Shown here: positions 33,845-37,067 of the stretch, in pieces | Position numbering within the stretch: position 1 is the first letter of the stretch | How the letters are laid out: the number at the start of each line of letters is the position of its first letter | Assembly: GCF_011806385.1 (NCBI RefSeq) | Contig: NZ_JAATOX010000007.1 | Coordinates: 1-64,000 of the forward strand | Direction: 5' to 3' | Source of the DNA: Phaeobacter sp. HF9A | Lineage (GTDB): Bacteria > Pseudomonadota > Alphaproteobacteria > Rhodobacterales > Rhodobacteraceae | DNA: 64,000 nt | The notes under the pieces: generated by a model | The model's input: the letters and a program-made list of their open reading frames with translations, nothing else | What the model was told of the DNA's origin: nothing | Databases searched by the model: none | Position numbers and translations under genes: made by a program

Positions 33845-33891
33845 CAAGACTAACGCGATATTGCGACGTGAAGATTGATAACGGAGCCGCA

Positions 33892-36204
33892 ATGATCGGT
33901 CGCACTTCCTCCTTTGTGCCGAACCTGAAGGTTCAAACGCCCGAACAGGCGCGGCTTGCCGTGACCTTTTGCCTGGCGCTGCTGCTTGTGGCCTGCCCCT
34001 GGCTGCTGACGCTGCCGGATTGGATCGGGCGGGCGCTGATCGCCGTCGGTCTGACACTGGCCGGTGTGGCGGCGCTGGTATTTGTGCAAAGCCGATCCCG
34101 GCTTGCGGCGAAAACCATGGCAAGCGAGCTGCTTGGCGGCTTTATCGACAAGGACGCGACGCCGAGTTTCGTGACCGATGATGCCGGTGTGATCCACGCC
34201 TGCAACTCTGCGGCGCTGAAACGGTTTGAGGGCAGCGAGAGCGAGACCATCTCCGGCACCTTGCGGTCGGTTCTGGCCAATCCCTCGGCGGTCTTGCTGC
34301 GGTTGCAGACGCGGGCACAGCAGGACGGCGCCGCAAGCGAGGATTTCGTGACCCGCCGTGGCCAGCTGCGTCTTGCGGTGCATGAGATGACAGCCGGGAG
34401 CTTCCTCTGGCGGGTTGAGGATCGGGTCGAGCGTCCGTCGGGGCGGGCGTCAGATACCAGCCCGGTGCCGATGATCTCTGTCGGGCGGACCGGGGCGGTG
34501 CTTTTCATGAACGAGGCGGCGCGCAGCCTGATTGGAGCGCGGGTTAAATCCACCGAACGTTTGTTTACCTCGCTGCCGGTGATGCCGGGGCGGATCAACA
34601 CCATCATGACCAAGACCGGCGCGGTGGAGGTGCTGGTCAGCGAACACTGCCATGGCCAGGGCCGCAGCGAGCTTTATTTCCTGAAGGCGGATGTCGAGGA
34701 CAGCGGCCCCCATACCGGTTTTGAAACCCTGCCCGTGCCGCTCCTGAAGGTGCGGCCAAGCGGCGAGGTCATGGCGATCAACCGCATGGCGCTGCGCCTT
34801 CTCGGGGCAGAGAAGGCCGAAGGCGTGCATCTTGGTCAGCTGATGGAAGGGCTTGGCCGGCCGATGAACGACTGGTTGCAGGAAACCGCTAAGGGGCTCG
34901 CGCCGCATAAATCCGAATTCCTGCGGGTCTCGCGCGAGGATAAGGAGGTTTTTGTTCAGGTCACGCTGACCCGGGTGATCGAGGAGGGCGAAACGCTGCT
35001 GATGGCGGTGCTGAACGACGCCACCGAGCTCAAGACGCTGGAGGCGCAATTTGTCCAGAGCCAGAAAATGCAGGCGATCGGACAGCTTGCTGGCGGCGTT
35101 GCGCATGATTTCAACAACCTCCTGACGGCAATTTCGGGCCATTGCGACCTTCTGTTGCTGCGCCATGATCAGGGCGACCAGGACTATGGCGACCTGATCC
35201 AGATCCATGAAAATGCCAACCGGGCAGCGGCCTTGGTGAGCCAGCTTCTGGCCTTCTCGCGCAAGCAGACCTTGCAGCCCGAGGTGCTGGATGTGCGCGA
35301 AACGCTGTCGGATCTGACCCATCTGCTGAACCGGCTGGTGGGAGAGCGGGTCTCGCTCACGCTCAGCCACGATCCGGTCATGCGCTCGATCCGTGCCGAC
35401 AAGCGGCAGCTGGAGCAGGTCTTGATGAACCTCGTCGTGAATGCCCGCGACGCCATGCCCAGCGGCGGCGAAATCCGGGTCGAAACCGAGGTGATCTCTC
35501 TGGATGCGCCGTTGGAGCGCAACCGTGCGGTGGTGCCGCCGGGCGAATGGGTGACCATCCAGGTCAGCGACGAGGGCAGCGGCATCGCGCCCGATAAGCT
35601 GCAAAAGGTGTTTGAACCCTTCTACACCACCAAACGCACCGGCGAGGGCACCGGGCTTGGTCTCTCTACCGCCTATGGGATCATCAAGCAGACCGGCGGC
35701 TTTATCTTTGTGGATTCAAAGGTCAACGTGGGCACCAAGTTCACGCTCTATTTCCCGGTCTATCGCAGCGATGGTGCGGAAGAGGCCGAGGCCGTGGCGG
35801 AGGTCGCCCCCAAGCCCAAACTCGCCGCGCAGCATGGCGATGGTGTGATCCTCTTGGTCGAGGACGAGGCCCCGGTGCGCGCCTTTGCCTCCCGGGCGCT
35901 GCGCATGCGCGGCTATACGGTGCTGGAGGCGGATTCCGCCGAGGAAGCCTTGCACACGCTGGAAGATCCGAACCTCAGCGTCGATGTCTTTGTGACCGAT
36001 GTGATTATGCCGGGTATGGATGGGCCCAGCTGGGTGCGCGAAGCGCTGAAGGAACGCCCGGGCACCAAGGTGGTGTTCGTTTCCGGCTATTCCGAGGGCG
36101 CCTTTGGCGATGCCGAGCCGGAAGTGCCGAATTCGGTCTTCCTCGCCAAACCCTTCTCGCTCAGCCAGTTGACCGAGACGGTACAATTGCAGTTGCAGGA
36201 CTAG
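33892..36204 (+). CDS. cckA: Hybrid sensor histidine kinase/phosphatase CckA
   Basis: The 770-aa product has two N-terminal membrane helices (residues about 22-65: FCLALLLVACPWLLTL and ALIAVGLTLAGVAALVFV), then PAS-like domains. The HisKA domain has His405 in AGGVAHDFNNLLTAI, followed by an HATPase with NLVVNARDAMPSGG and GEGTGLGLSTAYGIIKQTGG, and a C-terminal receiver with Asp703 in FVTDVIMPGMDG. This arrangement is that of CckA, which phosphorylates ChpT and thereby CtrA in alphaproteobacteria. The ATG at 33892 has GGAG five bases upstream; a GTG at 33868 is in frame. Its TAG stop is part of the CTAG flanking the structured element. Confidence 0.93.
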   Translation: MIGRTSSFVPNLKVQTPEQARLAVTFCLALLLVACPWLLTLPDWIGRALIAVGLTLAGVAALVFVQSRSRLAAKTMASELLGGFIDKDATPSFVTDDAGVIHACNSAALKRFEGSESETISGTLRSVLANPSAVLLRLQTRAQQDGAASEDFVTRRGQLRLAVHEMTAGSFLWRVEDRVERPSGRASDTSPVPMISVGRTGAVLFMNEAARSLIGARVKSTERLFTSLPVMPGRINTIMTKTGAVEVLVSEHCHGQGRSELYFLKADVEDSGPHTGFETLPVPLLKVRPSGEVMAINRMALRLLGAEKAEGVHLGQLMEGLGRPMNDWLQETAKGLAPHKSEFLRVSREDKEVFVQVTLTRVIEEGETLLMAVLNDATELKTLEAQFVQSQKMQAIGQLAGGVAHDFNNLLTAISGHCDLLLLRHDQGDQDYGDLIQIHENANRAAALVSQLLAFSRKQTLQPEVLDVRETLSDLTHLLNRLVGERVSLTLSHDPVMRSIRADKRQLEQVLMNLVVNARDAMPSGGEIRVETEVISLDAPLERNRAVVPPGEWVTIQVSDEGSGIAPDKLQKVFEPFYTTKRTGEGTGLGLSTAYGIIKQTGGFIFVDSKVNVGTKFTLYFPVYRSDGAEEAEAVAEVAPKPKLAAQHGDGVILLVEDEAPVRAFASRALRMRGYTVLEADSAEEALHTLEDPNLSVDVFVTDVIMPGMDGPSWVREALKERPGTKVVFVSGYSEGAFGDAEPEVPNSVFLAKPFSLSQLTETVQLQLQD

Positions 36205-36234
36205 GCTCAGGACCCATTAATCCTGCATCACTGG

Positions 36235-36330
36235 CGCGAAATCCACGAAAGATCAGTGCTTTGGCCTGCGCCGGGAATAGTGGTTCTATTTCCAAGCAGG
36301 CCAAAGTGCTGAGATGAAGTGGATTTCGCG
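36235..36330. repeat. Internal hairpin A of the structured element
   Basis: Arms 36235-36269 and 36296-36330 pair over 28 of 35 positions, with perfect ends of 12 bp (CGCGAAATCCAC) and 11 bp (CTTTGGCCTGC). The 26-nt loop holds GGAATAGTGGTTCTATTTC at 36274-36292. Confidence 0.8.
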
Positions 36331-36340
36331 TCCTTCGGAT

Positions 36341-36433
36341 TTGACGGTCTTTTGTCCTGACCGCCTCTCAGTTCCTTGAAATAGAACCACTATTCCTTCA
36401 GTATGGCTCGTTGTCAGGACAAAAAACTGACAA
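36341..36433. repeat. Internal hairpin B of the structured element
   Basis: Arms 36341-36361 and 36413-36433 pair over 18 of 21 positions. The 51-nt loop holds GAAATAGAACCACTATTCC at 36378-36396, the exact reverse complement of the hairpin A loop sequence. Confidence 0.8.
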
Positions 36434-36470
36434 ACCAGTGGCGCAGGATTAATGGGTCCTGAGCCTAGGG

Positions 36471-37067
36471 TCAGGCGGGGATTGAGCCGTAGAGCGCGAA
36501 CTCCTCCGGGTGTTTGCGCCTGAGCTTCTCCAGCGTGCGCGGCTCCAGCGTCAGATCCGCCTTTGGGCTGACGTTTTCCTGTTGGGTTTCAATGGATATC
36601 CCGGTGCGCTCTTCCAGAAAGCTGTGAAACGGCGCCAGGTTTTCATAGGCAAAGAGATGCGTCACGCGGCAGCCATTGGGCTGGGGTTCCAGAAATTTCG
36701 CCTGGCTGCCGACATTCGCATGGGGCGGGCGCTTGCCCTTGCAGTAATCCTGTACAAAGGCATCGAAACTCAGCCCCTTGGTCGAGACAGGCTTGCCGTC
36801 CAGATGCGGGCGCTGGCGAAAGCGATACCAGCTGCCAAGCCAGTCCACGGGCTCGCGCATCACCGCCGCCAGCTCCAGCTCGGTGTCGCAGACCCGTTCG
36901 AACATCGGGCGAATCCAGCGGTTGTAGCGATAGACGGGCGCGTGTTTCAGCTCTGGCGGGTCGGAGATCACGATATCCGCGTGGGGTCTCAGCGCCGTTT
37001 GCAGGGCGGTTGTGCCGGTCTTCGGCACCGACAGGAGCGCCAATTTTGCACGATAAAATACCATCAT
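36471..37067 (-). CDS. Sulfotransferase-like family protein
   Basis: The 198-aa product begins MMVFYRAKLALLSVPKTGTTALQ, containing the PAPS 5'-phosphosulfate-binding loop PKTGTT typical of sulfotransferases. A later segment AAVMREPVDWLGSWYRFRQRP resembles the 3'-phosphate loop with its Arg and Ser. The acceptor is unknown; roseobacters carry several such short proteins. I chose the ATG at 37067 because the fold starts there; the longer frame runs into the recA promoter and adds an unstructured leader. The gene is divergent from recA and convergent with cckA. Confidence 0.78.
   Translation of the reverse strand: MMVFYRAKLALLSVPKTGTTALQTALRPHADIVISDPPELKHAPVYRYNRWIRPMFERVCDTELELAAVMREPVDWLGSWYRFRQRPHLDGKPVSTKGLSFDAFVQDYCKGKRPPHANVGSQAKFLEPQPNGCRVTHLFAYENLAPFHSFLEERTGISIETQQENVSPKADLTLEPRTLEKLRRKHPEEFALYGSIPA

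Follow-up and report, generated by a model that had tools for sequence, protein, structure and literature searches.

A 268-bp, nearly palindromic element (36201-36468, flanking target letters included, no strand assigned) lies on the stop codon of a cckA-like gene in Phaeobacter sp. HF9A. We analysed it within a stretch of 64,000 nucleotides (contig NZ_JAATOX010000007.1, positions 1 to 64,000), referred to here as the window. By its sequence features the element is a non-autonomous transposable element, that is, a miniature inverted-repeat transposable element (MITE). It is probably moved in trans by IS5-family transposases, with an inside that would be built from a widely used hairpin module kept as a folded single strand.

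The element is short, carries terminal inverted repeats and has no transposase gene, as MITEs do; no open reading frame (ORF) of at least 90 aa lies inside its 268 bp. A first-pass annotation of this DNA had proposed a non-autonomous element of IS5 type, and the evidence agrees. A second full-length copy in the window's own genome differs at only 5 of 268 positions, and further copies occur in relatives. Partial matches at two contig ends of the same genome are possibly one copy split by assembly. We located the 3′ end of cckA in 17 of 18 Phaeobacter genomes, our own included. The insert was absent there in 16 of the 16 other congeners with the locus, since in each of them the spacing between cckA and the following gene lies within about 80 bases of what would be expected without the element.

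Searching 101 genomes (our own included) at the DNA level, we found matches in 9. Full-length copies were present in four (our own, G004, G020 and G055), and the other five held only 22-25 bases of one element end. DNA matches also fell on 11 plasmid records, from Phaeobacter and Pseudosulfitobacter. We then used a covariance model, R1, built from ten copies including the window's own (R1 match 1-268). It matched 29 of 394 genomes in a family sample, 17 of 196 in an order sample and 6 of 289 in a class sample, four of the 6 being outside the family; these samples overlap, and some of the matches are partial or weak. Two single loci deserve mention. In the window's own genome, a lone element end sits right after a TGA codon (G000:C11:21260-21290), apparently the remnant of a lost copy. 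In G020, a full element (L010:1501-1768) starts a few bases past what appears by eye to be a leucine tRNA gene.

Two of five short end matches turned out to be the ends of insertion sequences (ISs) of the IS5 family in relatives (L012 and L015), so that full-length ISs with the same terminal repeats, as envisaged in the first pass, do exist. The IS of L015 is 953 bp long with CTAGGCTCAGGACCCATTGA at both ends (also given as CTAGGCTCAGGACCCATTGATCAAGACGGCG, at both ends), and its two ORFs match transpos_IS5_3, although only one of them passes the cutoff. The IS of L012 is 857 bp long with a more divergent left end; both of its ORFs are above the transpos_IS5_3 cutoff, and DDE_Tnp_1 and DUF4096 are also matched. 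For Novosphingobium-type ends, one of four genomes examined gave 13 end matches.

To study the ends, we assembled 97 copies from 100 loci (short, long and duplicate ones excluded), reading each on the better strand and dropping the truncated L056, L084 and L086. The left end was CTAG in 53 copies, TTAG in 28 and other in 16. The right end, read inward, was CTAG in 52, TTAG in 26 and other in 19. Seventy of the 97 copies carried CTAG or TTAG at both ends, and all four combinations were present (29, 19, 16 and 6), giving a family end pattern of Y-TA-G...C-TA-R. Such mixing is expected if TA is duplicated within a YTAR site, and we infer that this is the target duplication. The same mixed combinations speak against the earlier idea that CTAG itself is a 4-bp target duplication.

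On this reading, the element itself would begin with G, and a TAG stop would be recreated on either side. In the window, a 778-aa ORF (33868-36204) stops at 36202-36204 on the plus strand, confirming that the left CTAG contains the cckA stop; judging from the family's end pattern, TA of this stop would come from the target and G from the element. The Pfam domains of the ORF (PAS, HisKA, HATPase_c and Response_reg) are consistent with CckA. Of the 167 edges that could be tested across the copies, 68 terminate an ORF of at least 100 codons; for control YTAG sites within these flanks the figure is 52 of 366. Such an ORF is closed at one or both edges in 56 of the 97 elements. The control sites include intragenic ones that would be harmful if hit, so the excess at stops need not mean targeting. 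A TA-in-YTAR target together with the terminal G would explain how such elements reside harmlessly on stop codons.

The overall fold is a four-way junction. Stem P1 (33-34 bp) is formed by the left terminal inverted repeat (36202-36234, plus strand), which starts with the target TA, and the right one (36435-36467, minus strand), which has TA at its end. Between them lie hairpin P2 (36235-36330), the mini-hairpin P3 (36331-36339; TCC-TTC-GGA) and hairpin P4 (36340-36434), all on the plus strand. The arms of P1 (36201-36234/36435-36468, 34 nt), P2 (36235-36269/36296-36330, 35 nt) and P4 (36340-36361/36413-36434, 22 nt) are 94%, 80% and 86% complementary, respectively. A 19-nt sequence around the P2 loop (36274-36292, plus strand) has its exact reverse complement in P4 (36378-36396, plus strand). 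Thus, the terminal repeats, the two internal hairpins and the complementary loops described in the first pass were all recovered in place. The predicted RNA fold has an energy of -163.2 kcal/mol, compared with a mean of -91.0 (sd 5.6) for 200 dinucleotide shuffles (z -12.9); none of the 200 folded as well, and the fold is therefore not due to chance.

P4 bears what we call the core hairpin (36353-36422, plus strand), consisting of a 7-bp stem S1, a CTTGA internal loop, a stem AATAG/CTATT and the loop AACCA (36385-36389). The apical part of P2 is the same hairpin inverted, with the apical loop TGGTT (36281-36285). A model of the core hairpin, R2, matches the P4 copy with an E value of 7.4e-11 and the inner P2 on the minus strand (36262-36303) with an E value of 0.0012. 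The core of the window is somewhat degenerate, with CTTCA in place of CTGCG and three non-standard S1 pairs.

The fold is conserved, as seen from widespread covariation and a length that hardly varies. Among ten copies, 43 of 90 pairs showed two-sided changes with pairing kept, bearing out the earlier proposal of a conserved internal architecture; even the outer pair of P3 is T-A in 9 of 10 copies and C-G in 1 of 10. Length was 267-270 bp in 77 of the 97 copies, and more distant members largely retain the fold and the length but differ clearly at their ends. Several longer variants were seen: L037 and L101 have an enlarged P3 or an extra hairpin, L096 has a GC-rich hairpin inserted in P2, and L093 and L138, from two genomes, share a similar insertion of about 40 bases in the apical P4 (ACCGGCAACACATGC...). 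G110 holds copies of 312 and 354 bp, several of its copies exceeding the usual length by some 43 or 86 bp. Short Rhodobacterales copies (157-165 bp) occur in G241, G456 and G389. Loci L110-L113 have one core match each and thus look like single-hairpin versions.

The core hairpin extends far beyond this family. Searching GTDB genome contigs for the core pattern CTTGAAATAGNNNNNCTATTCCTGCG, we obtained at least 119 matching stretches, with about 0.1 expected by chance on our own arithmetic. Rhodobacterales made up about half of the matches listed (38 of 80, counted from titles). Among the others listed were Novosphingobium, Hyphomicrobiales, a metagenome-assembled genome labelled Rickettsia, Microbulbifer, Reinekea, Saccharospirillum, Gilvimarinus, Burkholderiales and Desulfobacterales, and the Firmicutes Christensenella, Eubacteriales, Lachnospiraceae and Oscillospiraceae; many of these genomes are metagenome-assembled, and their taxon labels can be wrong. 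The core hairpin thus spans Alpha-, Beta- and Gammaproteobacteria, Desulfobacterales and Firmicutes, and in many cases the elements around it have unrelated terminal repeats. Using R2, we found it in 34 of 398 genomes across the phylum.

Stem S1 adjoins the searched pattern and lies outside it. Even so, each of its 7 positions was paired in 33-41 of 44 non-redundant matches, with several pair types. The letters past it (GCGTT and GCCTTG) are conserved, and pairing declines beyond 7 bp. In 30 sequences, 7 of 7 S1 pairs change on both sides, with a covariation score of 0.476 compared with 0.129 when shuffled and at most 0.166 when slid. For 63 more varied cores, in an alignment fitted to R2, 12 of 12 pairs change on both sides, and 89.0% are paired compared with 59.5% after shuffling. 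The internal loops stay unpaired, with letters much alike across phyla. Conserved loops on a freely varying stem, across elements of unrelated ends and different phyla, have the look of a functional structure. The presence of the core hairpin in otherwise unrelated small elements suggests that it is a shared working part.

How constant the inside is, and how variable the ends, became apparent when boundaries were called. TA-ended repeats were recognisable in 51 of 81 pattern matches, bounding elements of 162 bp (7), 265-270 bp (26), 311-314 bp (6) and other lengths (12); terminal repeats of 33 nt were present in all 26 of the 265-270 bp class. Automatic boundary finding gave no result for 30 of the 81 pattern matches, 11 of 58 Microbulbifer matches and 7 of 25 phylum loci. 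The automatic search found no terminal repeats for several pattern matches, the Desulfobacterales one among them. By automatic boundaries, 13 of the 25 phylum loci were 261-280 bp long, mostly with terminal repeats unlike those of the window element. The repeats of the 97 copies and the 51 bounded matches could be sorted loosely into 18 groups, one of which took in 120 of the 148, and some of these groups are artefacts of boundary calling. Clearly different ends were TAGGCCGTAAACTCATAAACAG in Novosphingobium, TAGTGGTCCATGCGGAAAGT in Microbulbifer, TAGTGTAGTGTTTCAC in Burkholderiales and Betaproteobacteria, and TAGAGTGTGTTTCTAAAA in Christensenella. One Microbulbifer genome, that of Microbulbifer litoralis, gave 66 model matches, and 41 of its 47 bounded copies were exactly 162 bp long. 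In the Microbulbifer genome G1149, loci L430 and L431 hold head-to-tail arrays of two and three elements, spaced at about 160 bp, with CTAG common to neighbours.

As to strand form, we counted G-T and A-C cells in the stems. On the plus strand of P2, G-T cells outnumbered A-C cells by 286 to 84 (92 rows), 158 to 47 (53 non-redundant rows) and 107 to 35 (36 rows), the bias being located in the distal half. P1 showed no such excess (103 vs 82). The core S1, read on P4's given strand, was biased the other way (G-T vs A-C), the counts being 10 vs 48 for 93 model matches (including a few P2 cores) and 6 vs 29 for 53. Other sets gave 4 vs 17 (pattern-defined) and 0 vs 13 (26 phylum loci). Taken together, the P2 bias and the reversed S1 bias favour one sequence form, GGAATAG-N5-CTATTTCAAG, which lies on the plus strand in P2 and on the minus strand in P4. 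This strand-specific bias is suggestive of folding as a single strand, most probably RNA that transcription meets on entry from either side. A mutational asymmetry between the strands could mimic it.

We therefore propose the following account. IS5-family transposases would recognise the terminal repeats and move the element in trans. It would insert into YTAR with duplication of TA, and the terminal G would restore a TAG stop, so that landing on a stop codon, as at cckA, leaves the protein unchanged. The inside would be a hairpin module whose internal loops are conserved and whose stem covaries. A far larger range of small elements, many of them unrelated in their ends, would share this module, and it would be maintained as a folded single strand. 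The two-hairpin form would place one module on each strand, and transcription from either side would then first make the module in the same sequence form. Acting as nascent RNA for the benefit of the element, the module, together with the P1 stem, might stop, slow or process read-through across the element's ends. This last step, drawn from the inverted duplication and the strand bias, we put forward only as a possibility.

Several observations weigh against this account. The exact empty site was not found among the 16 congeners, because cckA 3′ ends vary between species; of the earlier expectation of empty sites in relatives, the missing insert stood and the precise site did not. The core hairpin is absent from both IS5-family ISs seen, and from all of L012-L016. 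The window's own genome, which is incomplete, showed no IS of this kind, and the partner ISs are from relatives. The S1 bias weakens to 6 vs 12 at 80% non-redundancy (38 matches, p 0.24). Three columns supply 74 of the 158 P2 G-T cells (53 rows), the remainder still being 84 vs 46. The short S2 stem leans in the opposite direction (8 vs 0 and 12 vs 3; few cells, aligner-dependent). The basal stem of P4 shares this tendency (98 vs 65, p 0.012); there, one conserved column makes up 35 of 66 G-T cells (53 rows) and the counts without it are 31 vs 40. Single-hairpin Microbulbifer elements in tandem contexts show no orientation bias of the hairpin to neighbouring genes (8 vs 12). Finally, no intrinsic terminator pattern was found in the element, so that the first-pass suggestion of an RNA-level terminator was not borne out.

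The strongest competitor, in our view unlikely yet deserving of weight, is that the hairpins act as DNA. Extruded or single-stranded during replication or strand transfer, they would be recognised by a transposase or host protein and promote transposition, with RNA irrelevant. The clustering of lengths at 162 and 265-270 bp, the presence of the core in elements with many different ends, the tandem arrays of Microbulbifer with their spacing of about 160 bp, and the indifference of single-hairpin elements to the direction of host transcription all speak for it. However, the transposases of the IS5 family are DDE enzymes whose substrates are double-stranded ends, and the two IS5-family ISs with these ends do without the core hairpin. 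The wobble asymmetry is also as expected for RNA, though G-T pairs in DNA could yield it too.

Could the palindromes be kept by mutation alone? Template switching, which copies one arm onto the other, would produce compensatory changes without selection. Such correction of quasi-palindrome arms is known in bacteria, and long inverted repeats with two-sided changes are what it would leave. However, arm correction would erase the internal loops, which stay unpaired with similar letters across phyla. S1 is 7 bp long in the pattern matches with pairing falling off past it, element length is nearly fixed, and the wobble bias is confined to the distal stems. We thus regard template switching as an improbable explanation.

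The cckA copy might instead be domesticated, serving as a bidirectional terminator or as a 3′ untranslated region regulator of cckA and the convergent gene. Its position invites the idea: it sits on the cckA stop, and the convergent ORF stops at 36471, two bases past the element, as the first pass had placed it (the top Pfam match of this ORF is a sulfotransferase domain, below its cutoff). The strong fold would fit as well. However, none of the 16 congeners has the insert here, the 5 differences from the other copy indicate a recent arrival, and a terminator pattern is missing. The family also has no clear preference for convergent genes: the flanks were tandem in 53, convergent in 26 and divergent in 14 of 93 usable members of the 97-copy set, and 20, 12 and 10, respectively, of 42 usable Microbulbifer flanks, these classes resting on the longest open frame per flank and not on gene calls. 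Specific placement between convergent genes is thus unsupported. One weak promoter-like match lies on the minus strand (36417-36389). A Rfam covariance search of 36000-36700 gave three matches only at E values up to 10, far under gathering scores. We consider domestication very improbable. With no terminator pattern, no orientation bias and no clear convergent preference, the results do not point to a host-gene role; a function serving the element itself is more likely.

The first pass had also proposed that the two loops kiss or cross-pair and that this pairing is what selection keeps. Aligning both hairpins in 67 elements, we obtained 47 that were non-redundant at 90%, and the full 15-nt apical complementarity was kept in only 4 of them. 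In the 32 elements with two 5-nt loops, 129 of 160 loop positions were paired compared with 126.9 after permutation (P 0.18), and exact loop complements numbered 12 compared with 11.8 (P 0.58). The loops are complementary because P2 and P4 carry the same apical hairpin in opposite orientation. Despite the exact 19-nt complementarity in the window's copy, the permutation test rejects loop pairing as a selected feature, there being no loop-loop covariation and the apical stems of P2 and P4 differing within one element in many copies, and we give the idea almost no credence.

Beyond the account of a MITE moved in trans, a broader proposal can be made tentatively. A single module, with two conserved internal loops and a 7-bp stem that covaries freely, may be the working part that small mobile elements share throughout Proteobacteria and Firmicutes, those of Correia included, with ends that change to suit different transposases. 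Folded in a strand-specific way, as RNA or else as single-stranded DNA, it might act on a factor conserved across bacteria, such as RNA polymerase or an RNase, and two-hairpin elements, having one module on each strand, would work in both directions.

The core of the Neisseria Correia repeat looks similar to the core hairpin, and this likeness was tested on elements in viral contigs. R2 matched the Correia element with an E value of 0.6. A further model, R3, gave an E value of 0.0062, with L324 in its training set and the apical 27 bases of L324 nearly equal to those of Correia. A more independent test used a loop matrix (23 positions) whose training set of 53 cores left out both Correia and L324. 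On it, one CREE (Correia element) scored 36.3 bits and a second 18.0, compared with a null maximum of 17.3 in 128,630 bases; the 107-bp CREEs of L300 and L301 scored 14.3, one base out of register. Thus, of six CREE places in L300-L304, two were above the null maximum, two were at 14.3 and two fell outside the best 14 matches, while a non-CREE site in L302 reached 16.7. One CREE is thus a clear match, the rest being a base out of register, degenerate or outside the matches listed. A common origin of the Correia core and the core hairpin is probable on these scores, though not proven. Two related loci were also noted. The best R2 match in the Neisseria-type viral contigs (L300:8620-8687, minus strand, E 0.0041) lies away from the Correia element there, and R3 reported nothing for it. 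L324:1501-1571 (minus strand, genome G819) is a core hairpin without recognisable terminal repeats, between what by eye are pstB-like and phoU-like genes.

Among the open-licence PMC papers listed by our searches, we found no description of this set of elements. The papers examined take bacterial MITEs a single genus or family at a time and regard them as decayed insertion sequences. Of the closest known systems, IS5-family ISs (NCBIfam transpos_IS5_3) and their MITEs have the ends CTAGGCTCAGGACCCATTRA and the CTAG context in common with our element; the two such ISs, of 857 and 953 bp, encode transposase and have no core hairpin, whereas the element is non-coding and 268 bp long. REP/BIME sequences are likewise inverted hairpin modules of alternating orientation and high copy number. 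However, REPs are given as 20-40 bp with a GTAG or CGTC tag (PMC3733652), whereas the element has 33-bp repeats matching an IS5-family IS. QMITE1 and QMITE2 of Coxiella and MITEAba12 of Acinetobacter are small palindromic MITEs too. The QMITE RNAs are stated to be transcribed and strongly folded, and QMITE1 is reported without orthologues in other genomes (PMC5896051). A Thiomargarita MITE has been likened in structure to Correia elements (PMC4853749). Correia elements themselves (CREE, nemis) are short and non-coding, with TA-ended terminal repeats, target duplication, many copies and a stable hairpin RNA (PMC2229807, PMC2649163); they are also reported to be cleaved by RNase III and to bind IHF (PMC2649163). 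They differ in having other ends, not matched by those of the 268-bp element, lengths of mostly 104-108 or 153-157 bp, and a poorly paired S1. A 2009 paper describes the Correia repeat as found only in Neisseria (PMC2649163). If Correia belongs with the elements studied here, it would gain relatives, some with IS5-family partners, and its mobilisation would become testable.

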